The notes beneath the pieces are model-generated. The model was not told the DNA's origin. It did no database searches and was given only the letters and a program-made list of their open reading frames with translations. A program made the translations under genes and the position numbers. Positions 2,228 through 23,638 of a stretch of DNA of 25,996 nucleotides are shown here, piece after piece (position 1 is the stretch's first letter; each line of letters starts with the position of its first letter). The stretch comes from a virus, in IMG/VR virus record IMGVR_UViG_3300043446_005466, positions 1 to 25,996 of that record, one strand, 5' to 3'.

Positions 2228-3792
2228 CAGCCATCAGCCGGGGGCAGCACTTCCCGCACACCCGCTTCCGCCACCGCCGGTGCCGGATCAGCAAAGGTGA
2301 AGCCATCGCTGCTGCTCTCCAGCTCCTGCGCTTCGCTCAGGGCCAGCACCTGCTGTGGATCGAAATCATCGCCAAACACTTCACCGCGGCGCAGCAGCTC
2401 CAGCAGTGTGCGCTGATCGATCGCACCTTCCACAAACAGCCTGCCCAGCGCATCGATCGTTTGCGCATCGATCGGATCGGCATTGAAATCACGATCGATC
2501 GCCACCACCGGCGGTTCCACCCCGGCAAACTCAGCCACCCAGTTCACACCCCGCTGCAGCGCCGCTTCCAGATCCTGCGAAATCACCGCCAGCATCGAAT
2601 GGCTGTCGGCACGATCCAGCTGTTTTGCGATGCCGGATTCAGCCACATTTTTCTGCCGGGCCAGGATCGCAATGCCCAGGTTGGCCATTTGCTGCTCCAG
2701 GCTCTGCAGTTCCTTTTGCAGCGCATCGAAGGCGCTGCTGGCCGGCTCCACATAGAAGGCATCGCCATTTGTGGGCAGCTGCAGGGCGTTGTTCACACCC
2801 ACATCCAGCCTGTCGCTGGTTTGATCCCAGCCCTTCACCACCATCACCGGCTGTGCAGCCACATGCAGGCAGTTCAGCAGCTGCGCCTGCAGCGCATAGT
2901 GCTGCAGGTTCAGGTTGGCGATCTCCAGCAGCGGCGGCCGGGACTGCAGCAGCCCTTCCCGCTGGGAATACACCGCCACATAGGGAATGGCCTCCAGGCC
3001 CGTTTCACCCTCCTCGTGCAGCGCCCAGCGTTCTTCCCTGCCGTCGCGGCCCTTCACCACCCGGTAGGTGGCCCACTTCCCGGGCTCCAGCACCCGCACC
3101 TGCCGGTGCAATTCCTGGCCGAATTTGCCCCAGCTTTCGTGCACCACTTCCCGCAGCCGCAGCTGTGCCAGGTGCCCGCCAGCGCCACCAGCTGCCTCAC
3201 GCCAGCCGATCACATTGCCGGTTTCATACCGCACGAAATACGGCTTGACCGTGCTGCTCAGCTGATCCTGCAGCGTCACCACACCCGGATCGGCCTGGTG
3301 ATCCACCAGCCAGCCGTTGTGCCCGTAGGCAATGGCATCGAACAGCACCTTGCCGCAGAACTCCTCCAGGCTGCTGTTGTGCCTGTTCACATCCTGCCGC
3401 CACTCCTCCCACCACAGCGGATCACCACCCGACAGGGTGATCGGCTTGCGCAGGATCAGGCCCACCGCCGCTTTCACGATGCGCTGGAAAAAGGGTGTGA
3501 GCACACCCCGGGCGCAGCGCCGGCTGTAGGCAGCAGGTGTTTCGTGCTCCAGCTGCGGCAGCAGCTGCTCCAGCGCCCGCAGCCCCGCAGTCCCGCTCAG
3601 CACCGCTTCCACTGGCATCCACCGCTGGTATTGCACCCAGTAGGCAGGCGATGCCAGCGAAGGATCATCCTCCGGCCTGTAGCCCGGTGCTGTGCGCTGG
3701 TGCTGCGAAATATCCGGCAGGTCGCGGTTGCCTTCCCAGCCGTAGTGCGCGTTTTCTGAGTAGCTCGGCAGCTCCAGGCGGATGTCGGCCAT
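2227..3792 (-). CDS. Portal protein (DUF4055-like)
   Basis: 521 residues. The segment near residues 88-118 (RRCARGVLTPFFQRIVKAA then GLILRKPI) and the overall length match the DUF4055 group of phage proteins that occupy the portal position. The portal forms the dodecameric ring at the head vertex through which DNA is packaged and to which the terminase docks. Later helices and a Gln-rich stretch (LQKELQSLEQQMANLG) fit the stem and clip region. It lies between terminase and minor head protein, with a TGATG overlap on each side. The assignment rests on recalled family features and synteny. Confidence 0.88.
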   Translation of the reverse strand: MADIRLELPSYSENAHYGWEGNRDLPDISQHQRTAPGYRPEDDPSLASPAYWVQYQRWMPVEAVLSGTAGLRALEQLLPQLEHETPAAYSRRCARGVLTPFFQRIVKAAVGLILRKPITLSGGDPLWWEEWRQDVNRHNSSLEEFCGKVLFDAIAYGHNGWLVDHQADPGVVTLQDQLSSTVKPYFVRYETGNVIGWREAAGGAGGHLAQLRLREVVHESWGKFGQELHRQVRVLEPGKWATYRVVKGRDGREERWALHEEGETGLEAIPYVAVYSQREGLLQSRPPLLEIANLNLQHYALQAQLLNCLHVAAQPVMVVKGWDQTSDRLDVGVNNALQLPTNGDAFYVEPASSAFDALQKELQSLEQQMANLGIAILARQKNVAESGIAKQLDRADSHSMLAVISQDLEAALQRGVNWVAEFAGVEPPVVAIDRDFNADPIDAQTIDALGRLFVEGAIDQRTLLELLRRGEVFGDDFDPQQVLALSEAQELESSSDGFTFADPAPAVAEAGVREVLPPADG

Positions 3793-4025: not shown

Positions 4026-5351
4026 TCAATACACCTGGATGTTGGTGCTGCCAGCGCTCCAGGGCTTCACCCGGTTCGCTGCACCCAACACCAGGTAGCC
4101 CAGTGCATCGCACCAGTGCTCCAGCCCCGGCCCTTTGTCCACCACCCAGGCATCGGTGCCCAGCTTGAAGGTCACCCCCCGCAGGCCTTTGATCAGGTTT
4201 TTGCACCTGGGGTGCACCTTCAGCCGCCGCAGGCCCTGCGCATCCTGGATCAGGTAGTTCGTGGCCTGCAGTTTGTCTTTGATGCTCCAGGGAGCATTCG
4301 GGCTGATCACCGTAAAACCGTAGTTGCGCAGGATGCCGTGATCGGTCAGGCCAGCGCTGGCTGTCTTGCGGGCTGCACCGGTCGGATCGGGATAGGTGAG
4401 CAGCCGCCGGCCGCTGAACCGCTGCCGCAGGTATTCGCACACTTCCGCGGTGTTGCTGTTCTGCATCGAAATTTCTTCCCACACCAGCAGTTCATCGCCG
4501 CGCAAACTGCACAGCACCCCGGCCATCACGCCCACATTGAAATCCAGGCCCAGCAGGATTTCGGCGCCGGTGTCGCCCACATCAGGATCGATGTGGTGAT
4601 CATCGAAATCGGGATACACCCGGCCGGCCATACTTTCAAAGCTGGCCATATATTCCTGACGGAATGTGCGGGCATCCATCACCCGTTTCGCCGCTTCCAC
4701 TTCTTCCTCAGGCACCTGCCCGCCTTCCAGCGTGCTGAAGGTGAACCTGCTCCAATCGGCTTCACCCTCCACCGATTCCCACAGATCGTGAAAATGGTTG
4801 TAGCCGGCGGGGGTGGTGATGTGCCAGCAGGGGCCCTGTTGATCTGACAGTGACGGCCGCACGATTTCTGTCCACACCCTGCTGCTCACATAGGCAGCTT
4901 CATCGATCACAGCCCCGCTCAGGCTGCTGCCCCGCAGGCTGTCGGGCGAATCAGCGCCCATCAGGCTGATCGTTGCCCCGTTCACCAGCTTCACTGTCAG
5001 TTCAGTGTGATTCACGCTGGTGACAATCTCCGGCGGCGCCATTTCACGCAATGCCGCCCAGGCAATACGCTTCGCTGATCTGTAGGTGCTGGTGATATAC
5101 CAGAACACCCCGCCGGGTTTGCCCATTGCCCAGATCAGCAGCTGCCCCACCGACAGATAGGTTTTGCCGAAGCGCCGCCCGCAGCACAGCAGCCGGAAGC
5201 GGGTGTCAGCGTCATACACTTTCCGCTGTGGTGGTGTCAGCGTCGCTTCAATTCGCGCCGCATACGGCGTGAGATCAGTGCCCCGCTTGCGCGACTGCGG
5301 GGGCAGCAGAATGCTCCCCACCGGCCCACTGCTCAGGATGCTGTTGCTCAT
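4026..5351 (-). CDS. terL: Terminase large subunit (ATPase and nuclease)
   Basis: 441 residues with both halves of a packaging motor. The ATPase has Walker A GRRFGKT (residues 58-64) and Walker B AVIDEAA (Asp150, Glu151), followed by the coupling region HITTPAG. The RNase H-like nuclease has GLDFNVG (Asp270), YPDPTG (Asp322) and the late Asp in HWCDALGYL. It cuts concatemers and drives DNA into the prohead through the portal. I chose ATG 5351, which overlaps the upstream TGA as TGATG; a GTG three bases earlier is possible. It resembles the Terminase_6 type. Length is normal for the family. Confidence 0.95.
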   Translation of the reverse strand: MSNSILSSGPVGSILLPPQSRKRGTDLTPYAARIEATLTPPQRKVYDADTRFRLLCCGRRFGKTYLSVGQLLIWAMGKPGGVFWYITSTYRSAKRIAWAALREMAPPEIVTSVNHTELTVKLVNGATISLMGADSPDSLRGSSLSGAVIDEAAYVSSRVWTEIVRPSLSDQQGPCWHITTPAGYNHFHDLWESVEGEADWSRFTFSTLEGGQVPEEEVEAAKRVMDARTFRQEYMASFESMAGRVYPDFDDHHIDPDVGDTGAEILLGLDFNVGVMAGVLCSLRGDELLVWEEISMQNSNTAEVCEYLRQRFSGRRLLTYPDPTGAARKTASAGLTDHGILRNYGFTVISPNAPWSIKDKLQATNYLIQDAQGLRRLKVHPRCKNLIKGLRGVTFKLGTDAWVVDKGPGLEHWCDALGYLVLGAANRVKPWSAGSTNIQVY

Positions 5352-6202
5352 CACTGCACATTTCCGTTAGCGAAACCGCCCATATTTGCCAGCTTCGCCA
5401 TACTGTTCAGGCAGCCCAGTGAAGTGCCAAACTGTTCGGCAAAGCGTGCATCTGATGCCAGCCGCTGATACTGCTCCAGCAGGTCAACCATAAAGTCCTC
5501 CCTGTCACGATGCCAGTTGCTGCGCAGCACTGATCGTGCAGCCGCAATATATTCATCGATGCTGCGATCACTGGTGCCGCTAGTCCAGTTTTCCTTCGCC
5601 CAGTCCAGGATCTGCCGCCTGGTGGCGCCCAGGCCCATCCGCTTCACGATCTCCATCACCCGCCGTTCCGCTTCCGCCGGCTGTGATTTCGCTGTGATCG
5701 CCTTCCGCCCCGGCTGGCTGATGGGTGGTGGTGTCATCCCCCTGCGGCCATTTTTCTCAGGATCACGCTGGTGCCGTGCTGCTGTTGCTGGCTTCACCGC
5801 TGGCGGCAGCTTGCTTTCCATCCGCTGATACTTCCGTTTTTCCTTCTCAGTCAGCTCCGGCGCCACCGTGCCCGCGAAATCGCTTTCACGCTCCAGCATT
5901 TCCGCCCGCGCCAGTTTTTCGTCGCTGTAGGCAGCATCCCCCAGCAGGTCGCTGTGCCCCCGGGCCACTGCCCGCAGGTGTTTCATCACCCGATCGGTCA
6001 GATCAGGCTCAGCCACCTTCAGTTCCTTTGCCTTCGCCCGGATGCCAGCTGCAATCCGGCGCCGGGTGTTGCTGTTGTCCATCGATGCACCCGGCCTGCG
6101 GGCTGCATCGATGCCGGCCTGCATCATCACTTCCAGCTGCTGCACCGTGGCAGCTTTCAGGCCACCAGCTGTGGGTTTCAGGCGGGGCGCACGGCGGGGC
6201 AC
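5351..6202 (-). CDS. Probable terminase small subunit (DNA recognition)
   Basis: 283 residues directly upstream of the large terminase with an overlapping junction. The middle is charged and low-complexity (TEKEKRKYQRMESK). The C-terminal 110 residues look folded: RVMEIVKRMGLGATRRQILDWAK then SDRSIDEYIAAARSVL, a pattern that could hold a helix-turn-helix, followed by a region with LLEQYQRLASDARFAE. Position, length and a DNA-binding-like helical domain suggest the small terminase that recognises the pac or cos site. I do not see a diagnostic family motif. Start is GTG 6200-6202; an in-frame TGA lies 18 bases upstream, so no earlier start is possible. Confidence 0.6.
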   Translation of the reverse strand: MPRRAPRLKPTAGGLKAATVQQLEVMMQAGIDAARRPGASMDNSNTRRRIAAGIRAKAKELKVAEPDLTDRVMKHLRAVARGHSDLLGDAAYSDEKLARAEMLERESDFAGTVAPELTEKEKRKYQRMESKLPPAVKPATAARHQRDPEKNGRRGMTPPPISQPGRKAITAKSQPAEAERRVMEIVKRMGLGATRRQILDWAKENWTSGTSDRSIDEYIAAARSVLRSNWHRDREDFMVDLLEQYQRLASDARFAEQFGTSLGCLNSMAKLANMGGFANGNVQ

Positions 6203-6206
6203 TGGC

Positions 6207-6338
6207 TCACATCGATCTCAGGTGCACCCGCAGGCTACCCCTGAACACCATTGGCAGGCACCTGCAGGCAATGCCACTGCCCCCGCGGCAGCTGGTTTCC
6301 AGGGGGTGGGGGCTCACTTCAACTGAGGGTGCCGGCAT
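6207..6338 (-). CDS. Possible small ORF (43 aa), doubtful
   Basis: ATG 6336-6338 overlaps the RusA-like TGA as TGATG, and the frame runs MPAPSVEVSPHPLETS to a TGA at 6207-6209, just before the small terminase. Codon choice is less typical than in neighbours, and the other minus frames also read partly like protein (for example GQWHCLQVPANGVQG). The only support is the coupled start; it may equally be a leader with no product. Confidence 0.3.
   Translation of the reverse strand: MPAPSVEVSPHPLETSCRGGSGIACRCLPMVFRGSLRVHLRSM
6220..6239. repeat. Intergenic element, copy 2 (AGGTGCACCCGCAGGCTACC)
   Basis: Matches the block at 512-529 except for a GC insertion after the tenth base. It lies 17 bases before the GTG start of the probable small terminase gene. 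Both copies precede GTG-started minus-strand genes in the same operon, so a regulatory or processing role is possible. Confidence 0.5.
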
Positions 6339-6892
6339 CACTCCAGCTTCCGCACCACCACCGACACCCCAGGCAGCTCCCCCTTCTCACACCACTGCCG
6401 CTTCACCACCAGGCTGCACAGCTGTTTGTCGTCCACCCAGCCCCCGCCCGTGGTGATCGCATCGTTCACCGCCCGGCTCAGCTTGTCCACATCACCGCTC
6501 AGCACCGTGTGCCACACCGGTGCTTTTTCCTTCAGCTCACCGTTCGCCCGGAAGTGATGCTGCGGCCGCGCATACCTGAACCACATTTCAACCTCCATCG
6601 CTCCAGCACGATCCCACCCGTCCGGCACCGCCCGCTCCACTGCATTCGCCACATCACTCCGCCATCCCGGCAGCCGCCTGTTCGCTTCCACTGCACGGCC
6701 CCGCATATAGGTTTTGCTGCCCTGCGTCGCTGGCTTGCCGTTCACCGTGAAGGAAAACTCCATCGGCACTTCCTGCGATGCCCGCTGCAGGATCCGCTGC
6801 GCCGCAGCTTCCGCTTCCGTCAGCTCCTGCGGGGCATCGGCTGCCACTTTCGCCTGAAAATTGCCCCCGGTCGCCCGGCCCCTGCGCAGCAT
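6338..6892 (-). CDS. RusA-like Holliday-junction resolvase
   Basis: 184 residues. The core from MEFSFTVNGKPATQGSK (residue 44 on) through GDVDKLSRAVNDAI (Asp134, Asp136, Asp144) and WVDDKQ (Asp154, Asp155) matches the RusA endonuclease family, whose acidic residues bind Mg and cut four-way junctions. In phages it resolves branched DNA before packaging, and here it heads the packaging operon. The first 43 residues are an extra, charged and Ala-rich stretch. I chose ATG 6892 because ACCACCACAGG lies just upstream, like the leaders of other genes here; a GTG at 6925 or the internal ATG at 6763 (core only) are alternatives. Confidence 0.85.
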   Translation of the reverse strand: MLRRGRATGGNFQAKVAADAPQELTEAEAAAQRILQRASQEVPMEFSFTVNGKPATQGSKTYMRGRAVEANRRLPGWRSDVANAVERAVPDGWDRAGAMEVEMWFRYARPQHHFRANGELKEKAPVWHTVLSGDVDKLSRAVNDAITTGGGWVDDKQLCSLVVKRQWCEKGELPGVSVVVRKLE

Positions 6893-7546: not shown

Positions 7547-8085
7547 CACAGCCGGCTGCCCGTCACACCCCGCGATGCCGTGGGGAGCACCTGCCCGTTG
7601 TAGCGGCCCGTCTCCCGGTAGCTTTGCCGCGGCCGATCGTGCATCAGCAGCAGCACCAGCTGCACCACCGGCATCCCGGCCCACAGCCGCACCGGGCGGT
7701 GCTGCCTGCTGTTGTGCAGCTCCAGCGTGATCGTGCCGCGGAATCCCGGATCGATCCAGCCGGCCATCAGGTGTTCCAACCCTTGCCTGGCCACACTGGA
7801 TTTCAGCTGCACCTGCCCGCTCAGATCATCGTGCAGGTCCACCTGCTCAGCAGTGGCAGCCAGAATGAACTGCCCAGGCTGCAGCAGGAACGGATCAGCT
7901 TCGCTGTGCAGCTCCGCCAGCTGATACAGGGTGAAGCCAGGCCCCGCTTCATCCACTGTTTCCAGCAGCAGGTCAGGCCCCAGGTGCAGATCGATGCTGG
8001 CCGGGTTCACCGCTTCCGGGTGATACGGCTTCACCAGCCCTGCCTTCGCCCGCAGGTGCAGCGCTTCATCGTTCAGAACAGCCAT
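7546..8085 (-). CDS. dcd: dCTP deaminase / dUTPase-fold protein
   Basis: 179 residues with the motifs of the dCTP deaminase branch of the trimeric dUTPase fold: NPASIDLHLG (27-36), KSSVARQGL (95-103, catalytic Ser and Arg), WIDPGFRGTITLELHN (110-125, catalytic Glu122), and a C-terminal arm RYNGQVLPTASR (161-172) that closes over the nucleotide. It would make dUTP from dCTP (or dUMP if bifunctional), feeding dTTP synthesis for phage replication. Start ATG overlaps the upstream stop (TGATG). Next to a DUF3310 protein and an NrdR-like protein, it marks a nucleotide-metabolism operon. Whether it also cleaves dUTP cannot be read from the sequence. Confidence 0.93.
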   Translation of the reverse strand: MAVLNDEALHLRAKAGLVKPYHPEAVNPASIDLHLGPDLLLETVDEAGPGFTLYQLAELHSEADPFLLQPGQFILAATAEQVDLHDDLSGQVQLKSSVARQGLEHLMAGWIDPGFRGTITLELHNSRQHRPVRLWAGMPVVQLVLLLMHDRPRQSYRETGRYNGQVLPTASRGVTGSRL

Positions 8086-8492
8086 CAGCCCAGCCCAGGA
8101 AACAGATCATCGCTGGCCGCGGCCACACGCTCCAGCTCCAGCGCCAGCACCAGCGCACGCTTCACATACCACTGCGCCTTCGCCAGATCCCTGGCCCCAT
8201 CCTTCCGCCGCCAGCGCCACAGGTAGGCAACCGCTGTTTGCGTGCAGTGATCGATGTGGGCATCCACCCCGGCCATCGCCTGCAGCGCATCGATGCACTC
8301 CACCGCCCCGGCGGTGTAATGCCCCGGCGCTTCCACCAGCCCGCCAAATTCGGCCGCGGCTTCCACTGCATCGATGCCAGCTGCCAGCTGCTCCGCTGCC
8401 AGCTGCTTCGCTGCAGCGTCACTTCCAGCCCTGCCACTGCTGCCCCGCTGGGCACCAGCTCGGGCGGCCCCTGCACGATCGGCCCTTTTCAC
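8085..8492 (-). CDS. DUF3310 protein
   Basis: 135 residues. The first 50 are Ala-, Gly- and Arg-rich and probably disordered. The folded part has HYTAGAVECIDALQAM (58-73) and AVAYLWRWRRKDGARDLAKA (87-106), the pattern of DUF3310, a small helical domain found in many phages and, as I recall, in the T7 gp1.7 nucleotide kinase. Its place beside the dCTP deaminase fits a nucleotide-related role, but no enzyme activity follows from the visible residues. GTG 8490-8492 overlaps the upstream TGA and has GGAGG seven bases upstream, one of the few clear Shine-Dalgarno sites in the window. Confidence 0.8.
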   Translation of the reverse strand: MKRADRAGAARAGAQRGSSGRAGSDAAAKQLAAEQLAAGIDAVEAAAEFGGLVEAPGHYTAGAVECIDALQAMAGVDAHIDHCTQTAVAYLWRWRRKDGARDLAKAQWYVKRALVLALELERVAAASDDLFPGLG

Positions 8493-8956
8493 TTCACACC
8501 CTCCAGCTCAGCCGGCACCACATAGCAGCAGCCGATCGCTTCAGCAGTGAACGCTTCCGGCAAGGCCAATCCACACGAAATCAGTTCGGGGGATGCGTGC
8601 TGGCACCCCGCGCAGGGCAGGGTTTCCAATTTGGAAGGTGCCCCGGGGGGTGTTGCCGATCGGCTGCGCCTGGATCGGCGGGGATAAAAGGCGGAGCTGT
8701 CGGGCGCTGCAGCAGCGGTGTCAGCGATGGTGCTGGCGATGGTGGCGAATGCCGCGGCCTGCTGCTGGAGCAGCTGCAGGGCATCGCTGGTGATTTCGTA
8801 GGTGGTTTCACGGTGGCCGCAGGCGGAGCAGGCCAGGCGGCGGCGACGGGCCGGGCCGCTGGCCAGCACGGTGCTGCGGGATTCGATGGTGGTTACAGCC
8901 TGCAGGCCGCAGGCGGTGCAGGTGTGCCGCACGGGCGGCAGTGAAGGCGATGCCAT
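8489..8956 (-). CDS. NrdR-like zinc-ribbon protein without ATP-cone
   Basis: 155 residues. The N-terminus has a CxxC pair (CTAC), SRSTVLASGPARRRRLACSA and CGHRETTYE, closely like the zinc ribbon of NrdR, the repressor of ribonucleotide reductase genes. The ATP-cone that normally follows is absent. Instead there is a helical Ala-rich segment, an Arg-Ser-rich linker and a second Cys cluster (LPCAGCQHASPELISCG, later GCCYVV), perhaps a second metal site. It may bind DNA or regulate nucleotide genes of phage or host. Its own gene is preceded by CACCACACACC near the ATG. Confidence 0.65.
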   Translation of the reverse strand: MASPSLPPVRHTCTACGLQAVTTIESRSTVLASGPARRRRLACSACGHRETTYEITSDALQLLQQQAAAFATIASTIADTAAAAPDSSAFYPRRSRRSRSATPPGAPSKLETLPCAGCQHASPELISCGLALPEAFTAEAIGCCYVVPAELEGVK

Positions 8957-8976
8957 CAGGTTCTGGTGTGTGGTGA

Positions 8977-9162
8977 TCAGGAGCGGGGCAGGAGCGGGAA
9001 CGGCCCGTGCCAGGCGGTGAGATCGGTGGCGGCCCAGTCGGCCAGGGTGGTGAAGCCGTAGGTGGCAGCGGAGCGGGTGCAGGCTGCCAGGTGCTGTGGA
9101 TCCCAGCGCTGCAGGTGCGGGGCCAGGAACAGGTGGTGAGCGATGCCGGTGGTGAACAGCAC
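8977..9162 (-). CDS. Small unknown protein (61 aa)
   Basis: Begins at GTG 9160-9162 (VLFTTGIAHHLFLAPHLQRW) and ends ADWAATDLTAWHGPFPLLPRS. The sequence has mixed, protein-like composition, unlike the low-complexity frame upstream of it. The minus strand just upstream reads CACCCACCACCACC, the C-rich leader seen before many starts here. The next gene begins 20 bases after its stop. Function unknown; the rich His, Trp and Leu content does not point to a family. Confidence 0.5.
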   Translation of the reverse strand: MLFTTGIAHHLFLAPHLQRWDPQHLAACTRSAATYGFTTLADWAATDLTAWHGPFPLLPRS

Positions 9163-9187
9163 GGTGGTGGCGATGGTGGTGGTGGGT

Positions 9188-9221
9188 GATGGTGGCCGCG
9201 GCCTGATGGTGGCCGCGGCCT
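9188..9221. repeat. 17-bp perfect tandem repeat
   Basis: GATGGTGGCCGCGGCCT occurs twice without a gap (9188-9204, 9205-9221) in the leader between two minus-strand genes. Each unit contains GGCCGCGGCC, a 10-bp palindrome that is common between 7.2 and 10.3 kb. In RNA each palindrome could form a short hairpin. Confidence 0.85.
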
Positions 9222-9229
9222 GAGGGTGA

Positions 9230-9565
9230 TCAGGCAGCGGCCTGGGCTTTTGCCTTGCGCAGCACCCAGTAGGGGCTGCCCACTGATTCAGTGGCATCGC
9301 CGGACTGCAGGAGCTGCTGGCGCAGGGCTTCCTGTGCAGCCTTGCCGGCAGCGGTGAGGGTGGTGCTGGTGCGGCCGGACTGCAGGCCGAAGGTGTAGCC
9401 GAAGGCGGTGAAGCGGGTGGGGCACAGGCCAGCAGCGTGTGCTTCCTGGAGCTGAGCGACGGCGGCATCACGCTGTGCCTTCCAGGCTTCCAGCTGGGCG
9501 GTGGCGTAGGCCAGCTCCTGAGTGATCTGCTCCAGGCGGTCGGCGGTGACGGTGGTGGTGTTCAT
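9230..9565 (-). CDS. Coiled-coil-containing unknown protein (111 aa)
   Basis: Residues 4-45 (ADRLEQITQELAYATAQLEA and on) form a likely coiled coil. A small folded segment follows (FTAFGYTFGLQSGRTSTTL), then a helix and SPYWVLRKAKAQAAA. I chose ATG 9565, where CACCCACCAC lies four bases upstream and a promoter lies just beyond; a longer frame upstream crosses that promoter and is not likely used. No known family recognised. It is the first gene of the inner transcription unit that continues to the dCTP deaminase. Confidence 0.7.
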   Translation of the reverse strand: MNTTTVTADRLEQITQELAYATAQLEAWKAQRDAAVAQLQEAHAAGLCPTRFTAFGYTFGLQSGRTSTTLTAAGKAAQEALRQQLLQSGDATESVGSPYWVLRKAKAQAAA

Positions 9566-9589
9566 CTGTGGTGGGTGTGAACTGAAGCC

Positions 9590-9619
9590 ATTATGGGTGC
9601 AAGTGGGTGCAACCGTCAA
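9590..9619 (-). promoter_or_regulatory. Minus-strand promoter with embedded tandem operator
   Basis: -35 TTGACG (9614-9619) and -10 CATAAT (9590-9595), 18 bp apart. The spacer consists almost wholly of the tandem element, GGTGCAA at 9596-9602 and 9606-9612 read on the plus strand (TTGCACC on the transcribed side). A bound protein here would block RNA polymerase. Predicted transcripts begin about 16 bases before the ATG at 9565 with the C-rich leader. The -35 overlaps the stop codon of the upstream gene. Confidence 0.7.
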
Positions 9620-9906
9620 GCGGGTGGTGTGGGCATCGCCGCGGCCAGCCGATCAGCCAGTTCGCCCAGCACGGCATCACGATCCAGCCCGCTCAACACC
9701 GCCCCGGTGCGCAGGCTGCGCACGGTGTAGCAGGTGAAGCCCGGCAGCTTCGCCGGCCCGGGCATCCCGGGTTCCCAGGCTTCAGTCTCCGGCTGATCGG
9801 TGCGATACAGCCGGGCCACCGGCAGGCTGCCCCACCGGATTTCGCAGGTGGGCCCGGCCGGGCCCTGTTCCACAGGGCCGAAGCGCAGCGCAGGGTGCAG
9901 TGCCAT
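9616..9906 (-). CDS. Unknown protein (96 aa)
   Basis: Begins MALHPALRFGPVEQG, contains WGSLPVARLYRTDQPETEAWEP and GFTCYTVRSLRTGAVLSG, and ends with a helix rich in Ala (ELADRLAAAMPTPPA). The look of short beta strands followed by a helix suggests a small folded domain, but I recognise no family. It starts four bases after the stop of the preceding gene and is probably co-transcribed with it. Confidence 0.65.
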   Translation of the reverse strand: MALHPALRFGPVEQGPAGPTCEIRWGSLPVARLYRTDQPETEAWEPGMPGPAKLPGFTCYTVRSLRTGAVLSGLDRDAVLGELADRLAAAMPTPPA

Positions 9907-9910
9907 CGGA

Positions 9911-10462
9911 TCAGGCTCCTGCTGCGGCCAGGGCGGCCAGGGCGCTGGCGCGGCTGCGGCCAGGCGCGATGCCCAGCTGGTGGCAGCGGCGCCGGGCCTG
10001 CCGATAGGTGAGCTGCTCCAGACCAGCGGGGGCCGCGGCCGGCACCACAGCGATGGTGGTGCCAGCAGGCAGCGGTGCAGGCACCGCCACCGGCAGCGCC
10101 TGCCGCAGCGGCGGCAGCGGCTGCTGGGGCAGCGATGCCACCAGGCTGTGCAGCTGGTGCTGGCGATCGGCAGCGGCCAGGGCCGCGGCCACCGGCTCCG
10201 CCGAAGCGGGTGCCGGCTGCGCCGCAGCGGGCGCTGGGGCAGGCGGAGCGATCAGGCCTGCCCAGGCCGCGGCCAGCTGATCGTTCAGCTGGTGCAGCAG
10301 GCGGCCGCTGATCAGGCCTGCCTGATAGGTGAAGCCGATGCTGGCGCGGCACCAGGCCGCGGCGGTGATGCAGGTGGCGATGCCCAGGGCAACGGCCGGG
10401 GCAACAGCGAAGGCAGCGTGCCGGGCGCCCTGGCCCAGCTGCTGTGTGGTGGGGATTGTCAT
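9911..10462 (-). CDS. Single-pass membrane protein with possible SAP-like C-terminus
   Basis: 183 residues from ATG 10462. A hydrophobic stretch at about residues 15-36 (AAFAVAPAVALGIATCITAA) should span the membrane; the start precedes it by only 14 residues. A long Ala/Pro-rich linker follows. The last 35 residues (LTYRQARRRCHQLGI, then SRASALAALAAAGA) resemble the helix-extended loop-helix of SAP-type DNA-binding domains, though weakly. GCACCCACCACACC lies just before the ATG, supporting this start; ATGs at 10606-10609 would add about 48 residues and cross a possible -10 (TAGTGT near 10508). It heads the early minus operon. A membrane anchor with a nucleic-acid-binding tail is a guess. Confidence 0.6.
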   Translation of the reverse strand: MTIPTTQQLGQGARHAAFAVAPAVALGIATCITAAAWCRASIGFTYQAGLISGRLLHQLNDQLAAAWAGLIAPPAPAPAAAQPAPASAEPVAAALAAADRQHQLHSLVASLPQQPLPPLRQALPVAVPAPLPAGTTIAVVPAAAPAGLEQLTYRQARRRCHQLGIAPGRSRASALAALAAAGA

Positions 10463-10973
10463 TTCTGGTGTGGTGGGTGCGGGGCGCGTTCGGCCCCTGC
10501 TCCGCCACACTAGCACCGGATCGGTGCTGGTGGGTGTATCTGCCACCAGCTGATCCTGGAAATGCTCGGGGGGTGGTATCAGCTCCCCCCGGCCCCTGCC
10601 GAACATCACCCACCACAGGCAGATCGGCAGGGTTCGCCCGAAGGCGATGCCCGCACCCTATCCCCACCCGGCCGGCCCCGCTGGTGGCCGCGGCGCTGGT
10701 GGGCCACCAGCCGGCCCGCTCCAGCCCCCTGAGCAGTCTCACCGTGATTCCCAGGTGTAACCCACGGGATTTCGGTGGTTTGGGCTGTCACTTCCAGCCG
10801 AAAACCGTTTGCTAAATGGCAGCGGGCGCGGCCCCCCATCCAGCCCCATCCAGCCCACATCTGAGCAGAAATACCCCCCTTGCGGAGTTTTTCGGCAGGT
10901 CGGGCCCAGTGTTTGCAAGGGGTTTGGCGATCAGCCTGCCTGGGGCGGGGTTTGGCCGGGCTCGGCCAGGGGT

Positions 10974-11257
10974 GTGATCAGGTGATCACCCCCTTGCAGC
11001 CCTGTGATCAGGGGGGTGAACACGGGCAGATCGGTTGCAGCGCAGCGGGTTTGGGGGGTGTGATCAGGTGTGATCTGTGATCACCCCCCCTTCCATACCC
11101 CTTATAGGAAAAAACAGGGCATATACCCCCACCCCCTTATGTTCCATTCCCCCTATAAAACCAATAAAAAAGGGGTGCACACAGTGATCACACCACCAAA
11201 CCCGTTGCAGCCCAGTGGATTTCCGTGATCAGGGGGGTGTGATCACAGGGTGAACAC
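10974..11257. other. Candidate replication origin: GTGATCA iterons flanking an AT-rich tract
   Basis: TGATCA-core boxes start at about 10974, 10982, 11004, 11060, 11077, 11184, 11225 and 11239, with a variant GTGATCT at 11070 and GTGAACAC at 11016 and 11250. Several belong to longer repeats such as GATCAGGGGGGTG and the perfect palindrome GGTGATCACC (10981-10990). Between the two groups, 11090-11171 is the most AT-rich stretch of the window (CTTATAGGAAAAAACAG, CCCTATAAAACC, AATAAAAAA). Iterons beside an easily melted tract, next to the primase-helicase gene, are typical of a phage origin. A regulator-binding array is the alternative. Confidence 0.5.
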
Positions 11258-11332
11258 AGTGCACACAGCTGCGGGCCCTGGTGGTGGTGCTGCGGCCCCC
11301 GCTCCAGGCCTGTCCCGGTCACCTGCCCGATC

Positions 11333-11365
11333 AGCCGGCCAGCAGCCGGCCAGCAGCCGGCCAGC
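11333..11365. repeat. 11-bp tandem repeat, three copies
   Basis: AGCCGGCCAGC occurs three times without a gap (11333-11343, 11344-11354, 11355-11365). Each unit holds the palindrome GCCGGC, so the array can fold in several ways. It lies between the GTGATCA cluster and the 3' end of the primase gene. Confidence 0.85.
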
Positions 11366-11538
11366 CCCTGCCGTGATCGATCAGCCCTGGGGCATCGCCA
11401 GCTGCGCCCCAGCCAGCCCGAACCGTGCCTGCCGGCTGCTGGTGTTGGGCAGCCCCCGGAGCAGGCCTGCTGTGGCGCTGGCGGGCCAGCGGAAGCGGTG
11501 TGGGCTGGCGATGCCGTGGGGTGCTGGTGGGTGCGCAC

Positions 11539-11564
11539 GAAAAAGCCCCCCGGGCTGGGGGGCT
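11539..11564 (-). terminator. Intrinsic terminator after the primase gene
   Basis: On the minus strand AGCCCCCC, a 5-nt loop (AGCCC) and GGGGGGCT, followed directly by TTTTT. The 8-bp stem is perfect and nearly all G-C. It begins 20 bases after the primase stop codon and would end leftward transcription before the GTGATCA region. Confidence 0.9.
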
Positions 11565-11584
11565 GGTGTAACCCGGTCGGTGCC

Positions 11585-14503
11585 TCACCACCAGTTCCCA
11601 GCTGGTGGACCGCCCCGCTGATCCTGCTGCAGATCGGGGTGCTGGAAGCGGGCGTGATCAGGCTCCTCACCGGTGCGATGCCACACCGTCACCAGGGTGG
11701 TGTAACGGTTGCCTGGGCGGATCCGCTTCCGTTCCCAGGCGCCGCTGGCCTTCAGCACCTTCGCCATTTCGGCCTGCTCCGCTGGTTTGCAGTCGGTGGG
11801 CAGGCGGTGCAGCCCGCTCAGCACTGCAGCGTTCGGCAGGGTGAAGCACGCCCCGGTCGGCAGGCCTTCGGCCCAGTGCAGCAGCGCAGGGCCGTGCCGG
11901 CTTTCGGGTTCATAGGTTTCGTTCAGCTCCTGCAGCTGCCTGGCTTCATCCGGTGTCAGCCACCAGTCACAGCTGCCGGTGCGCTGCTGGTAAGCGAGCA
12001 GCGCCGCCTTCCAGATCGAATCACGGTGCCGCCGCACCCGTTCAGGCCTCACCCCGCTGCAGTCGCCCACATCCACCACCCAGAACCGCCGGGCGCCGGT
12101 GTTGTCGCGCAGGAAATCGTCGGTGTTCACCGTGGCGATCATCACGCTGGGGCGCAGCAGCCGTTCAGCAGCGCTGGCATAGGGAGCCCGCACCCGATCG
12201 ATCGATGCACTGATCTGTGCCTTCAGTTCCCCCGCTGCCCGTTTGTTTGTGATGTGCTCCAGCTCCTGCAGTTCGTGAATCCAGCAGCTGTGCATCGCCA
12301 GCAGGAAATCCTTGCTGTTCACATCGGCGGTGTCGTTCAGCCATTCCAGGTTCGGCAGCAGCGCCCGGATCCAGGTTGATTTCCCTTCGGCCTTGTCTCC
12401 CTGCTCACCCTTAAGCACCAGCACGGTCTGCATCTGGCAGCCGGGCTCCAGCGCCCGGGCCACTGCACCGATCAGTGTTTTCCGCACCAGGGTGGCGCTC
12501 AGTTCATCGGTGACACCCAGCGTTTCCGCCGCCACTGTGTTCAGATCCACCGGGTTCACCGACTGATCCAGCAGCAGGCCGTGCAGGTATTCGCGCACGG
12601 GGTGGTAGCTGTTCTGCCGGGCGGTGTGCAGCACGGCATCCCTGGCTTCACCCTTGCGCACCTTCCAGCCCACCTGCGCCAGCTGCGCATAGGTGTTGTC
12701 GATCACCGGCACCGGCAGCTGCACCTGGTGGGCGGTGCCATTGGCATCCACCACCGTCATTTCGGTCTGCTGCAGCAGCAGGTTCCACCGCAGGAAACCG
12801 GGCCGGCCGATGGTGGCCTGCTCCAGCGCCTTCATCAGCTCACCCAGATCGGCATCGCCGGTGGGCACCGACAGGGCCGCCAGCAGCGGTTTCCATTCCT
12901 GGCCGGCCGGTGGTGGGCCATCGCCCCAGGCGGTGGATTGCAGCAGCGCTTCCTGGGTTCTGGTGCGCTGCAGGTCACGGGCCTGCGCCTTCAGCTGGCG
13001 CTGTTCATCGGTGCGGGCCGCCTTCACCAGCTGATCGAACTGCACGCTGAGCATCAGCGGGTTGCTGGCGGATGTGCCCACCAGGTCGCTGCTGGTGCGC
13101 AGGGCGGTTTTCACCTGAGCGCTGATCGCGGTGCTGCCGGCCCTGGCATCCAGGCGGCCACAGCACTGGGCGATGCTGGCCAGCTGCTCCAGGCAGGCGG
13201 TGCGGCCGGGATCAGCGAACGGATCGATCCGGCCATCGTTGCAATCGGTGGCCAGGCGGTTCGCCGCGGCCAGCATCGATTCCAGGGTGATGTTGCCCGG
13301 CAGCTGGAGCGGGCCGGGCCCGGCCACCACATCGATCACCTGCTGCGCAGCGGGCGGTTCGGCGGGTGCTGGTGCTGGATCGATCGGCTGGTGGTGGTTG
13401 CCGTTGCCGCTGCTGGGCGGTGTGCCGCCGGGCAGGGAATCGATCAGCTGCTGCACGGTGGGGCCTGCGGGTGGTGCATCCACCAGCATCGGTGCGGCGG
13501 GCGGGAGTGACACCGTTTGTTCGCGTGGGCGGTGCTCCCGGAAATTGCCGCGCATCCCGATGCCTTCGGCGTTGCCTTCGGATGTGAAGGCATAGGTGCG
13601 GCCATCGCTGCCCAGGATTGTCTGGCCGGGCTTCAGGCGGCCGTGGCGGGCGGTGTAGCTGAAGGTGCTGCCATCGAAACAGCGCACCACTGCGGGCTGA
13701 TTCGGATCGCGCAGCCAGGCGCAGATATGGTTGTCGCCGGATTTCGCGGTGCGGCCGCAGATCGGGCACTGTTCCTTCCGGCCCATCCGGCGCCACACCT
13801 TGCCATCGCTGCGGCGGGCGGCATCACGGCGGGTTTTCTCCTCAGGGTGCAGCTTGCCGCGGCCCTGCTCCCGCGCTTCGGCAACGGCCAGGGCCAGGGT
13901 GAACCATTCGTGCGGCAGTGTGGCCAGCGCTTCAGGCCCGCGGCCCTGGGGCCAGAAATAGTTTCCGCCGCTGGGGTGAGCGCCCAGCAGCACCACCTGC
14001 CGTGCGCTGTGGTGGAACACTTCGATGCCTTCGCCGGCATCGCTGGGGCCGGCCGGTTCGGTGAGACGCAGGCTCCAGCTGCAGGCATCACCCAGGCGCT
14101 GGGCTTGATCGGGTGTCGGACGGAACAGCAGCTTGAAACGCCCGGGCACCGGTTCACCGGTGGCATCGGTGCGGGCCACTGTCCAGGTGGCGGTGGTGGT
14201 GGGATCGATGCCGTGATCGAAGGCAAACTGCACGGCAGCCAGGCCATCGAAATCAACCGCCAGCACGCTGTCGCCGGTGGGCTGCGGGCCGGTGATCAGG
14301 CCGAACCCAGTGGCATCGGGGTTGGCTAGCACCTGCTGATCGGAGAGGTTCAGGCGCTGCCAGCCGTCACCTGCGATGCCCGGTGACTTGCCGCGCACCG
14401 GCACCAGGCGGGGCGAAGTGCTCAGGTGCCAGCCGTCAACCGTGCGCAGGCGGGTGAGCTGTTCGCGCCACTGCTGGGCGGAACCGGGTGTGGGTGATAC
14501 CAT
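11585..14503 (-). CDS. Primase-helicase: prim-pol-like N-terminus and VirE-type helicase
   Basis: 972 residues. N-terminal part: GFGLITGPQ and VLAVDFDG (Asp84, Asp86), then FKLLFRP and EVFHHSARQVVLLG, consistent with a bifunctional primase-polymerase core. A possible zinc site follows (CPICG at 246-250, HIC at 259-261). The C-terminal part is a virulence-associated-E-type helicase: Walker A GDKAEGKST (702-710, with a slightly long loop after GEQ), Asp and Glu near IHELQELEH (742-750), IDRVRAPYA, and the sensor region MIATVNTDDFLRDNTGARRF. It would prime and unwind DNA at the phage fork. ATG 14503 was chosen, with GAGG 12 bases upstream; ATG 14521 in frame is possible. It is followed by a terminator. 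Confidence 0.88.
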   Translation of the reverse strand: MVSPTPGSAQQWREQLTRLRTVDGWHLSTSPRLVPVRGKSPGIAGDGWQRLNLSDQQVLANPDATGFGLITGPQPTGDSVLAVDFDGLAAVQFAFDHGIDPTTTATWTVARTDATGEPVPGRFKLLFRPTPDQAQRLGDACSWSLRLTEPAGPSDAGEGIEVFHHSARQVVLLGAHPSGGNYFWPQGRGPEALATLPHEWFTLALAVAEAREQGRGKLHPEEKTRRDAARRSDGKVWRRMGRKEQCPICGRTAKSGDNHICAWLRDPNQPAVVRCFDGSTFSYTARHGRLKPGQTILGSDGRTYAFTSEGNAEGIGMRGNFREHRPREQTVSLPPAAPMLVDAPPAGPTVQQLIDSLPGGTPPSSGNGNHHQPIDPAPAPAEPPAAQQVIDVVAGPGPLQLPGNITLESMLAAANRLATDCNDGRIDPFADPGRTACLEQLASIAQCCGRLDARAGSTAISAQVKTALRTSSDLVGTSASNPLMLSVQFDQLVKAARTDEQRQLKAQARDLQRTRTQEALLQSTAWGDGPPPAGQEWKPLLAALSVPTGDADLGELMKALEQATIGRPGFLRWNLLLQQTEMTVVDANGTAHQVQLPVPVIDNTYAQLAQVGWKVRKGEARDAVLHTARQNSYHPVREYLHGLLLDQSVNPVDLNTVAAETLGVTDELSATLVRKTLIGAVARALEPGCQMQTVLVLKGEQGDKAEGKSTWIRALLPNLEWLNDTADVNSKDFLLAMHSCWIHELQELEHITNKRAAGELKAQISASIDRVRAPYASAAERLLRPSVMIATVNTDDFLRDNTGARRFWVVDVGDCSGVRPERVRRHRDSIWKAALLAYQQRTGSCDWWLTPDEARQLQELNETYEPESRHGPALLHWAEGLPTGACFTLPNAAVLSGLHRLPTDCKPAEQAEMAKVLKASGAWERKRIRPGNRYTTLVTVWHRTGEEPDHARFQHPDLQQDQRGGPPAGNWW

Positions 14504-14523
14504 TGTCGCGTGATACCTCATTT

Positions 14524-14556
14524 GGGAGCGGGCGGGGGCCTGCTCCCTTTTTTTTT
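14524..14556 (+). terminator. Plus-strand intrinsic terminator inside the primase leader region
   Basis: GGGAGC (14524-14529), a 12-nt G-rich loop, GCTCCC (14542-14547), then nine Ts. It points rightward, although no plus-strand gene lies to its left: that strand is antisense to the primase gene for almost 3 kb. It would stop antisense transcription before the plus-strand operon. In the leftward primase mRNA the same hairpin sits in the 5' leader after an A-run. Confidence 0.8.
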
Positions 14557-14564
14557 GCTCCGCC

Positions 14565-14593
14565 AGCGTGGCACAGCCAGGGCAATGCTGCAA
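14565..14593 (-). promoter_or_regulatory. Primase promoter (leftward)
   Basis: -35 TTGCAG (14588-14593) and -10 CACGCT (14565-14570), 17 bp apart on the minus strand. The predicted leader of about 55 nt contains the A-run and hairpin described at 14524-14556. The tandem GGTGCAA element begins 10 bp upstream of the -35, so one bound protein could affect both divergent promoters. Confidence 0.5.
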
Positions 14594-14622
14594 CTGCCAG
14601 GCGGTGCAACCGGGTGTAGCGT
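14594..14622 (+). promoter_or_regulatory. Rightward promoter with tandem operator
   Basis: -35 CTGCCA (14594-14599) and -10 TAGCGT (14617-14622), 17 bp apart. The spacer holds GGTGCAA (14603-14609), and the second heptamer GGTGTAG (14613-14619) overlaps the -10. It lies back to back with the primase promoter and should drive the small genes from 14646. Confidence 0.6.
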
Positions 14623-14645
14623 GCGGCCAGCCGCCTGCTGGAGCA

Positions 14646-14825
14646 GTGGAAACGATCACGGTCACGCCGACCGCCGATGGTCTGGGATATGCGGTGCGCC
14701 TGGAAGCGCACGGGTTCGCTGTCACCGCCAGCGTGTCATCGATGCACCTGGTGGAGGACAAACTGCCGCAGCTGCGCCGGATGATCGATCAGCTGGCCAC
14801 CGAAGCGCTGGAGCCGCAGGAATGA
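14646..14825 (+). CDS. Small unknown protein (59 aa), first plus-strand gene
   Basis: From GTG 14646: VETITVTPTADGLGYAVRL, then SSMHLVEDKLPQLRRMIDQL. It reads as a small beta-sheet followed by a helix. An ATG at 14568 in the same frame would put the promoter inside the gene and add a Cys/Gln-rich stretch of poor quality, so the GTG about 24 bases after the -10 is preferred. The stop overlaps the next ATG as ATGA. No family recognised. Confidence 0.6.
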   Translation: METITVTPTADGLGYAVRLEAHGFAVTASVSSMHLVEDKLPQLRRMIDQLATEALEPQE

Positions 14826-15067
14826 ACTGGGCTGAGATCCTGGAGCGGGCCGGCATCCCTGAGCCCCCGGGCCGGCCCGAAGTGGTGGCAGCGATTGCAG
14901 CGGAGCGTGCTGCTGCTGAGGCTGCAGCACTGGTGCAGCCCCCGCAGCCTGTGGCGAAGCGTGCTGCGAAAAAGCGTGCCCTGGGGCCCCGGCAGCGGGC
15001 CGCTGCTGCAGCGGCGAAGGCGGCAAAGGCAGCGCAGACTGGTGGCAGCTGCCTGGGCCGCCGGTGA
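14822..15067 (+). CDS. Small Lys/Ala-rich basic protein (81 aa)
   Basis: Starts MNWAEILERAGIPEPPGRPE, then a helix with many Ala, then a basic Ala-rich tail (KRAAKKRALGPRQRAAAAAAK). The N-terminal WAEILERAGIPEPPGR is a pattern I have met in other small phage proteins of unknown function. The basic tail could bind nucleic acid. Its ATG overlaps the upstream stop (ATGA), and its own stop overlaps the next GTG (GTGA), so it is translationally coupled on both sides. Confidence 0.7.
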   Translation: MNWAEILERAGIPEPPGRPEVVAAIAAERAAAEAAALVQPPQPVAKRAAKKRALGPRQRAAAAAAKAAKAAQTGGSCLGRR

Positions 15068-15297
15068 CTGATCCGAACCGCCTGTGGCTGTTGAACCTGA
15101 AGCCTGAGCGTGATGCCCGGGCGAAAGGTGGCACTGGGCAATGCCTGAGCCTGGTGCTGGAGTCTGCTGGCCCGATCGAAGCGGTGCTGCAGGATGCGCT
15201 GCAGCGCTACCCCGGCCGGGTGCTGGATGTGGTGGGGCCGCAGGGCGAAAGCTACCTGCTGTGTTGCACACCGCCCTGGTATCAGCCGGCGGAATAG
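15064..15297 (+). CDS. Small unknown protein (77 aa)
   Basis: From GTG 15064: VTDPNRLWLLNLKPERDARA, GQCLSLVLESAGPIEAVLQD, then DVVGPQGESYLLCCTPPWYQ. The beta-helix-beta look suggests a small folded domain of unknown role. It is the third of three overlapping genes, and the next promoter begins two bases after its stop codon. Confidence 0.7.
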   Translation: MTDPNRLWLLNLKPERDARAKGGTGQCLSLVLESAGPIEAVLQDALQRYPGRVLDVVGPQGESYLLCCTPPWYQPAE

Positions 15298-15298
15298 C

Positions 15299-15326
15299 TT
15301 GCACCTGGTGCAAGTGGGTGTAACCT
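15299..15326 (+). promoter_or_regulatory. Promoter with tandem operator before the helicase unit
   Basis: -35 TTGCAC (15299-15304) and -10 TAACCT (15321-15326), 16 bp apart. GGTGCAA at 15307-15313 and GGTGTAA at 15317-15323 fill the spacer and overlap the -10. The predicted start of transcription leaves a leader of under 20 nt containing CCCCACCAC before the ATG at 15350. Confidence 0.6.
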
Positions 15327-15349
15327 GCTCAGTGCCCCACCACAGGGAA

Positions 15350-15502
15350 ATGACCAAACAACCGAAACAGCCGAAGGTGATCAGCGCCAGCGGCTACCTG
15401 TTCAGAATCGAAGGCGGCCGCCGGGTGTGGCTGTCGGTGCCCCCGCAGGAATGGCAGCAGGCCAACGGCATCGAATGCCCCGCCACCCCCGGTGCCCGCT
15501 GA
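15350..15502 (+). CDS. Small unknown protein (50 aa) before the helicase
   Basis: Begins MTKQPKQPKVISASGYLFRI and continues GGRRVWLSVPPQEWQQANGI. The leader holds CCCCACCAC and AGGGAA directly before the ATG. The stop overlaps the helicase ATG (TGATG), so the two are coupled. It may be a small partner of the helicase; no family recognised. Confidence 0.65.
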   Translation: MTKQPKQPKVISASGYLFRIEGGRRVWLSVPPQEWQQANGIECPATPGAR

Positions 15503-16986
15503 TGCCCTTTTCACTTCGCCACTACCAGCAGCCCCTGGTGGATCAGGCCGGCCTGCTGATGCAGCAGGGCCGGGTGCCCTGCATCGTGCTGCCCACCGGC
15601 GGCGGCAAGACGGTGGTGCTGGCCGAACTGGTGCGGCAGGCCCTGCTCCGGCAGGAGCGGGTGGTTTGCGTCGCGCACCGGCAGGAAATCGTGCAGCAGA
15701 TCACCCAGTCGCTGCGGCAGCACCTGAGCGGGACCGGCACCAGCATCGAAGTGGTGCAGGCCGGCTGCAAGGCCCACTGGCGTGCGCAGGTCACTGTCGG
15801 GATGGTGCCCACCCTGGCCCGCCGCACGAAACACCTGGGCGCCTTCGCCGGCTGCACCCTGTTTCAGGATGAAGCCCACCACGCTGCCGCCAGCACCTGG
15901 CTGAGCGTGCAGCAGGCGCTGCAGCCGGCCCGCAGGGCAGGCCTCACCGCCACCCCGGTGCGGCCCGATGGCAAGGGGATGGGCGATGCTGCTGGGTTCA
16001 CCGACCTGGTGCTGGGCCCGCACCCTGACGAACTGATGGCCGAAGGGGCACTGTGCCGCTACCGGTTGTTCGCCGCCCCGCAGCAGATCAGCAGCCAGGG
16101 GCTCCGCCGCCGCGGCGGTGATTTCGTGCTGAGCGATGTGGAAAAACGGGTGGTGGAAATCAACGGGCAGATCGTGCCCGACTGGGAGCGCCTGAACCCT
16201 GACCGCCTGCCCACCATCACGGTGGCGGTGTCGGTGGATCACGCGCACCAGCTGGCAGCGCTCTACCGCGATGCCGGGCACGCTGCCGAAGCGGTGGACG
16301 GCAGCACGCCGAAGGGGCAGCGGGATGCTGCCTTCGCCCGCTTCCGCTCCGGTGAAACCACCGTGATCGTGAGCTGCGCCCTGATCGATGAAGGTCTCGA
16401 TGTGCCCAGCGCCACGGTGCTGCAGCTCACCAGGCCCACCGCCAGCCTGCGGCTGTGGAAACAGCTGTGCGGCCGGGTGCTGCGCCCAGCGGACGGCAAA
16501 CCCTATGCGGTGATCGTTGATCACACCGACAACTGGCGCCGGCTGCCGCTGCCCGATGCCCGGATCAAATGGGAGCTGAATCCCGATGTGCAGGCGGTGG
16601 CGCAGCGCCGGCAGCTGGAAATCGATCCGGTCACTGATGAAGTGAAGGTGGGCCCGGTGGTGGAAATCGAAACCACCGGCAAACAGCTGCAGGAAATCAC
16701 CCCGGAGCTGATCGCTGCGGCGCACCCCACTGCTGCGCGGCGGATGTTCAACCAACGCTTTCAGCAGGAGCTGACCGGTGTGATGTGCGGCGACCTGCCG
16801 GCAGCATCGATGAAGGTGTGGTTACAGCGGATTCCGCTGCTGGAGCAGGCGAACCTGGAAGCGCTGGGGCAGGTGCTGGATCTGGGTGCCGGCTGGGCTC
16901 AGGCGCAGCTGATGCTGAACAGCCTGCTGCCGGCCACCCGGCTGGCGGCCACGAAACAGGCACAGGAGCGCCTGCGGCGGGGCTGA
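15502..16986 (+). CDS. SF2 DEAH-box helicase (RadD / type III res-like)
   Basis: 494 residues with a full superfamily 2 core: Q-like region LRHYQQPLVD, motif I PTGGGKT (31-37), Ia VAHRQE, motif II DEAH (123-126), motif III LTATP (148-152). The second RecA domain holds VSVDHAHQLAALY, FRSGETTVIVSCALIDEGLDVP and the arginine-finger motif QLCGRVLRP. About 130 residues follow that are phage-specific. Such helicases act in recombination, fork repair or replication; bacterial RadD is the nearest well-known relative by motif layout. ATG 15502 overlaps the stop of the small upstream gene. Confidence 0.9.
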   Translation: MPFSLRHYQQPLVDQAGLLMQQGRVPCIVLPTGGGKTVVLAELVRQALLRQERVVCVAHRQEIVQQITQSLRQHLSGTGTSIEVVQAGCKAHWRAQVTVGMVPTLARRTKHLGAFAGCTLFQDEAHHAAASTWLSVQQALQPARRAGLTATPVRPDGKGMGDAAGFTDLVLGPHPDELMAEGALCRYRLFAAPQQISSQGLRRRGGDFVLSDVEKRVVEINGQIVPDWERLNPDRLPTITVAVSVDHAHQLAALYRDAGHAAEAVDGSTPKGQRDAAFARFRSGETTVIVSCALIDEGLDVPSATVLQLTRPTASLRLWKQLCGRVLRPADGKPYAVIVDHTDNWRRLPLPDARIKWELNPDVQAVAQRRQLEIDPVTDEVKVGPVVEIETTGKQLQEITPELIAAAHPTAARRMFNQRFQQELTGVMCGDLPAASMKVWLQRIPLLEQANLEALGQVLDLGAGWAQAQLMLNSLLPATRLAATKQAQERLRRG

Positions 16987-22882: not shown

Positions 22883-23375
22883 CCTGAACTGCAACCCGAT
22901 CGAACAGGAAGCCCGGCAGGCATACCTGGAAGCGCTCTATCTGCTGGCCGGCCGTGATCGCCCCGGCGCCCACAACGCTCACACCTACACCGGGCTGCTG
23001 CAGGAGCGCCAGCAGGAGCTGCTGCGCCGCGATGCCCTGGAGCTGAGCACTGCATCACCGCTGCGCACCGAAATGCCCGTGCACGACCTGCTGGGCAGCA
23101 GCATCCGATCGCTGCTGATCGAACCCACCGAAGGTTCCCTGGCCGCCACCAGCGTGATCTGCCGGCTGCTGGCCGCCCGGATTTCGGTCACCGCCAGCCA
23201 GCTGGCCGGCTCCGATGCCGATCGTGCACCGGTGGTGATGGCCACGATCGATGCAGTGGCCGGGTGGCTGCGGCAGGAAGCACTGGTGGCTGAGCGTGCC
23301 CTGATCGCTCACTGCGATCCAGATTTTCACGCCATCCCCGTGCTGGACACCGTTCGCCCTGTCGCCGTCCACTGA
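22875..23375 (+). CDS. Unknown helical protein (166 aa)
   Basis: MPDLNCNPIEQEARQAYLEA, HNAHTYTGLLQERQQELLRR, then VHDLLGSSIRSLLIEPTEGS and ATIDAVAGWLRQEALVAERA. Almost wholly helical, no signal or catalytic motif seen. It overlaps the preceding gene by 8 bases and the next by one base (TGATG). No family recognised. Confidence 0.7.
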   Translation: MPDLNCNPIEQEARQAYLEALYLLAGRDRPGAHNAHTYTGLLQERQQELLRRDALELSTASPLRTEMPVHDLLGSSIRSLLIEPTEGSLAATSVICRLLAARISVTASQLAGSDADRAPVVMATIDAVAGWLRQEALVAERALIAHCDPDFHAIPVLDTVRPVAVH

Positions 23376-23638
23376 TGAACTGCCGTGAAAAGCTGCAGGC
23401 CCTGGGCCTGAGCGATGCCGCCAGCAGCGCTGCCCTGCACTATCTGGCCGATCACCTGGCCCACAGCCTGCACCCGAACCCGCAGGCCCTGCCCCTGTTT
23501 CAGCAGGCCTTTCGCTGCGGCATCCGCGCCGCCTGCGATCAGCTGCGCACCGATGCCGGCGACACCGTGAGCACTGTGGATTTCCACCCGCCCACCACCC
23601 AGGCATCGCACAACCTGCTCACAGCAGCGAATGCCTGA
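23375..23638 (+). CDS. Small unknown helical protein (87 aa)
   Basis: MNCREKLQALGLSDAASSAA, LHYLADHLAHSLHPNPQALP, then FQQAFRCGIRAACDQLRTDA. It looks like a helical bundle. It overlaps the gene before by one base and the gene after by 8 bases. No family recognised. Confidence 0.65.
   Translation: MNCREKLQALGLSDAASSAALHYLADHLAHSLHPNPQALPLFQQAFRCGIRAACDQLRTDAGDTVSTVDFHPPTTQASHNLLTAANA

Follow-up and report, generated by a model that had tools for sequence, protein, structure and literature searches.

Mostly opposed box arrays around an AT-rich tract as a probable replication origin near a VapE-type helicase gene of an uncultivated virus

Introduction

What is the role of a dense group of TGATCA boxes in a gene-free stretch of a viral genome fragment, and which protein would recognise them? 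The DNA analysed here (the window) is a 25,996-bp fragment of an uncultivated virus with 67% GC. A previous reading, made without database searches (the sequence-only reading), had proposed that positions 10974-11257 constitute a replication origin with iterons and an AT-rich tract. Among the products encoded in the window are a terminase that shares 55% identity with the one of cyanophage S-2L, a portal protein, two helicases, RusA, an ERF recombinase and a dCTP deaminase. Terminase (4026-5354), portal (2227-3792) and a superfamily II helicase (15526-16578) are common to the window and S-2L; relatives of S-2L PurZ, DatZ and MazZ were not found in the window fragment. The protein encoded at 8489-8956 (minus strand) has at its N-terminus an NrdR-like zinc ribbon, which scored slightly under the Pfam cut-off.

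Results

The box cluster

The eight TGATCA boxes and two variants, which the sequence-only reading had counted in 284 bp, are all present: TGATCA starts at 10975, 10983, 11005, 11061, 11078, 11185, 11226 and 11240, and the variant GTGAACAC at 11016 and 11250. The longer repeats and the palindrome reported among them were also found, GATCAGGGGGGTG twice and GGTGATCACC once. With 0.21 TGATCA expected per 284 bp, the probability of at least eight copies is 8e-11, or about 7e-9 when corrected for all windows. The whole window has 27 TGATCA sites vs. 4.2 expected from dinucleotide shuffles. We considered the excess elsewhere in the window as a possible signal, but it is accounted for by base context: the 19 sites outside the cluster agree with the Markov expectation of 22.5, thus it is the cluster alone that needs explaining. 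Two GC-rich repeats in coding sequence of the window had also come up in an earlier control based on repeated 8-mers, showing that the 8-mer count alone is unspecific and that a comparison between intergenic stretches is fairer. Of the six stretches between genes in the window, only 10861-11543 contains a significantly repeated 8-mer (TGATCACA, six copies, 0 of 300 shuffles).

Each reading frame of 10861-11543 is interrupted by three to seven stops and none spans the stretch, in agreement with the claim that the region has no gene. The adjacency to the primase-helicase gene holds in so far as the boxes lie in the same intergenic gap, 3' of the gene, but they are not directly at it: the array begins 328 bp past the helicase stop codon, beyond a terminator-like hairpin (11564-11544, minus strand) that probably marks the end of the helicase transcript. 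Across the array from the helicase gene there is a small ORF of 84 amino acids (10606-10860, minus strand), which overlaps the next ORF (9911-10609) by four bases and has no family match.

Orientation of the boxes

Because the TGATCA core is palindromic, orientation was taken from the outer TG (TGTGATCA). The left array (10973-11085, plus strand) consists of TGTGATCA at 10973, 11003, 11059 and 11076, TGTGATCT at 11069, the palindrome GGTGATCACC at 10981 and GTGAACAC at 11016; its four TGTGATCA copies are exact and all point right, towards the AT-rich tract. The right array (11176-11267, minus strand), with TGATCACA, the reverse of TGTGATCA, at 11185 and 11240, the variant TGAACACA at 11251, TGCACACA at 11176 and 11260 and CGTGATCAGG at 11224, points mostly left, also towards the tract. 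The orientation is not pure: several boxes are palindromic or stand on the 'wrong' strand, and GGTGATCACC and a few of the right-hand boxes read both ways. The boxes are repeated, as their description as iterons implied, but they do not form a simple direct repeat; that the two groups are mostly opposed had gone unnoticed.

The tract between the arrays (11090-11171), a probable unwinding element, is 58.5% AT, the highest value among the 25,914 windows of 82 bp, and fully deserves to be called rare in this GC-rich DNA. It has G-runs on the helicase-coding strand; in relatives, too, such a tract lies between opposed boxes. No DnaA box with fewer than two mismatches was found. The cumulative GC skew of the window has no extremum at 11.1 kb, the window being a fragment in which the skew tracks gene direction.

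The putative initiator

The neighbouring gene (11585-14761, minus strand) codes for a VapE-type SF3/AAA+ helicase (PF05272, 1.8e-55; PDB 7pds, E 1e-17), the putative initiator. It is 1058 amino acids long if translated from a TTG codon, but the true start is uncertain and similarity to the relatives begins near residue 109. The N-terminal half is diverged and PrimPol-like. It aligns with the Prim-Pol domains of the relatives, whose N-termini match PF09250 in 12 of 13 cases; in the window's own helicase no Prim-Pol match reached the Pfam threshold, and the likeness lies only in motifs conserved with the relatives. The N-terminal half retains the aspartate pair D170 and D172 and the histidine H262, conserved across the alignments.

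An AlphaFold2 model of residues 691-1058 (mean pLDDT 80) had as best match SaPI PriRep1 with double-stranded DNA (7pds; Z 24.6 over 326 residues, next entry 13.3). The alignment takes in the C-terminal winged helix and continues through to residue 470 of 7pds. By the model and this alignment, the winged helix of the window's protein occupies about residues 957-1029 (11675-11893, minus strand), and it is likely to be the box-binding domain.

Recurrence of the layout

The nearest relatives as judged by terminase (L001-L009, 55 to 100% identity) are contigs that end before the array region. No match came up when the phage collection was searched at the nucleotide level with 8001-15500, a single-protein search of viral or cellular genome contigs returned no close helicase relatives, and none of the searches made found a close relative spanning the array region. 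An alignment of four initiators led to 80 further uncultivated loci, which with the seeds formed 20 groups at 70% identity; 18 named phages and satellites were added. In the 600 bp following the gene, 13 of 20 groups had an 8-mer repeated more often than in any of 200 shuffles, as had 1 of 17 on the upstream side. One 8-mer reached five copies or more in 20 of 38 VapE 3' flanks and in 5 of the 453 windows used as controls (Fisher P 8e-21). For the named records and the window, significant repeats were found in 13 of 18 intergenic stretches 3' of VapE vs. 1 of 30 other intergenic stretches, the single exception being Vibrio phage 1.009.O, whose array is found upstream, still within the replication module. 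The inner boxes, i.e. those nearest the tract, were opposed in 30 of 33 regions. It must be added to these figures that the box words were picked from the regions later scored, and that the regions are not all independent, though the groups were cut at 70% protein identity; for the former reason we put the weight on the shuffles and control windows rather than on the raw counts.

The comparison with other phages came out in favour of the origin: the same layout recurs in unrelated phages, with box sequences that differ between them, behind VapE/PrimPol helicase genes of cyanophage S-LBS1, of uncultivated viruses and of phages of Paenibacillus, Staphylococcus, Enterococcus, Yersinia, Marinobacter and Corynebacterium. 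Some VapE phages have no array at the 3' position (e.g. L146, L221, L228 and L230), and in L211 and L229 (467-912) the box array is upstream of the VapE gene, not downstream (GGGCACAA, AGGTATGG). Viral contigs scanned for GTGATCA triplets gave, among the matches listed, mostly unrelated clusters; the useful one was L094, where at 5990-6400 an array of GATCAACAC is adjoined by a further, dense array. This one consists of GTGTCCACAACGT-type repeats and may belong to a second binding system or an operator set.

The sequence of the boxes tracks the type of winged helix of the initiator. GGTNGG boxes were found in 8 of 11 groups with a winged-helix motif of the RQTRxDQM type and in 0 of 15 groups without it, a correlation part of which shared ancestry alone could give. 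The G-rich strand of GGTNGG-type boxes reads outward from the tract (in L205 the gap taken as the tract by the script was the wrong one). In five phages with such boxes (L140, L145, L154, L197 and L132) the helicase-coding strand between the boxes has an AT-rich stretch followed by a G-run (AGGGGGG), perhaps a priming or unwinding signal.

Discussion

We think it very probable that 10973-11267 is the replication origin of a cyanobacterial virus, acted on by the neighbouring VapE-type initiator. The proposal of the sequence-only reading is supported by the recurrence of opposed arrays and AT-rich tract 3' of VapE/PrimPol genes, a layout equal to that tested in PICIs (PMC6092414). This parallel with satellite origins was missing from the reading, and it allows the kind of element to be named: most likely a SaPI/PICI-type rep-ori module in an ordinary phage. 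The C-terminal winged helix of the initiator would bind the TGTGATCA boxes. Since the box sets mostly face each other, two helicase assemblies would sit in opposite orientation, one on each side of the AT-rich tract, where they could melt the tract and load for two-way unwinding; replication would start here, and priming on the opened strands may then fall to the PrimPol-like N-terminal half.

It is possible, if improbable, that the boxes are an operator array, on which a phage repressor or activator controls a leftward promoter within the AT-rich tract. The palindromic GTGATCAC resembles a dimer site, the tract contains AT-rich, TATAA-like words, and a leftward series of genes begins at 10860. 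However, no sigma-70-like promoter was found in the array region (the only match was at 9619-9590), isolated TGATCA sites elsewhere are at background level, and in phages whose neighbouring genes differ the layout stays with the helicase gene. The region could also serve as origin and operator both.

Very improbably, the inverted arrays act as one large cruciform and not as protein-binding boxes, like the stem-loop origins proposed for pRN1 and Bordetella phages. The array strand does fold better than its shuffles (z -3.4), and for Bordetella phage BIP-1 a study in 2014 placed a proposed stem-loop origin on the 3' side of a PrimPol-SF3-winged-helix protein; repeats met elsewhere in that study were judged not to be an origin (PMC4234260). 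The position 3' of the replication protein gene and the similar domain order are shared with the window (PMC4234260). The pRN1 type, however, has one large stem-loop and no iterons; although the strand of the window can fold, it carries several box copies on each side at varied spacing, which a single stem would not need, and in many relatives the boxes of each side stand in direct tandem. Moreover, in BPP-1 (L231), a phage near-identical to BIP-1, a 70-bp AT-rich tract is flanked by 2+2 opposed GTTTGCCTC boxes of 9 bp, at about 465-570 bp from the stop of bbp29. These boxes are likely to be an origin different from the stem-loop proposed for BIP-1, and their offset (+465) resembles the gap of 328 bp in the window.

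Repeated boxes with an AT-rich core also occur in centromere-like sites, but a locus for partition, packaging or some other protein binding that has nothing to do with replication has next to no likelihood, as the terminase and portal genes are 5-9 kb off, no partition gene was recognised among the scanned proteins, and the association seen across phages is with the initiator helicase.

If the region is a replication origin, it is an element of a kind already known, and the interest lies in the breadth of the layout across phages: it was seen next to initiators of this one family in ordinary phages whose hosts are cyanobacteria, firmicutes, actinobacteria and proteobacteria. This breadth suggests that phages and satellites share one replication module. 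It offers a simple rule for locating phage origins from sequence alone, and many pairs of initiator and box from which to learn how a winged helix reads DNA. We consider it rather likely that the facing-iteron origin serves VapE/PrimPol phages in general, over many host phyla, and that the box co-diversifies with the winged helix to give each phage or satellite a private origin code.

Comparison with known systems

Origins behind a primase gene are known from Streptococcus thermophilus phages. For cyanophages, we found no report of a facing-box layout in the open-access papers searched. S-LBS1 and S-2L are cyanophages whose helicase is related to that of the window. The origin-like region of S-LBS1 (34237-34641) also lies 3' of a PrimPol-VapE gene and has opposed boxes (GCCTAACCT/AGGTTGGGC) around a purine/AT-rich tract; it differs from that of the window in box sequence, in its longer tandem runs and in being directly behind the gene. 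The GC-skew minimum of S-LBS1 adjoins the array, in a genome where the skew likewise tracks gene direction. In S-2L, whose DNA has adenine replaced by 2-aminoadenine, a CCCCCCCCC-TAGGAGAGAGAGAAAAAAA-GGGGG tract flanked by GGCACAG/CTGTGCC boxes was seen by eye 3' of PrimPol (23039-23397, L130). With a p of 0.07-0.11 for the exact 8-mer repeat against shuffles, this is a possible but weak candidate origin for the 2-aminoadenine phage, in which the 'AT-rich' element would have triple hydrogen bonds. The GC-skew maximum of S-2L is 5 kb away.

The putative origin of SCCmec Cch2 is similar in that the C-terminal domain of the initiator helicase binds repeats just downstream of the gene; it differs in having only three 5-nt iterons and a D5-type helicase, and in residing on a mobile cassette, not a phage (PMC7581432).

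The closest resemblance is to the SaPI/PICI rep-ori module. There rep is followed immediately on its 3' side by the origin, in which an AT-rich region always lies between two iteron sets, and plasmid maintenance drops when this origin is deleted (PMC6092414); SaPI Rep recognises the downstream iterons via its C-terminal domain (PMC7581432). The window has the same VapE-type initiator helicase with a C-terminal winged helix, and 3' of its gene the two box sets and the AT-rich region, although with 328 bp from the stop codon the fit to 'immediately 3'' is loose. PICI satellites lack a full set of capsid and large-terminase genes and depend on a helper, whereas the window, with its own genes for the large terminase subunit, portal and head protein, belongs to a phage, and its box is TGTGATCA. 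The PICI layout was said to be absent from every other known bacterial replicon (PMC6092414); published as exclusive to satellites, it appears to be common in VapE phages.
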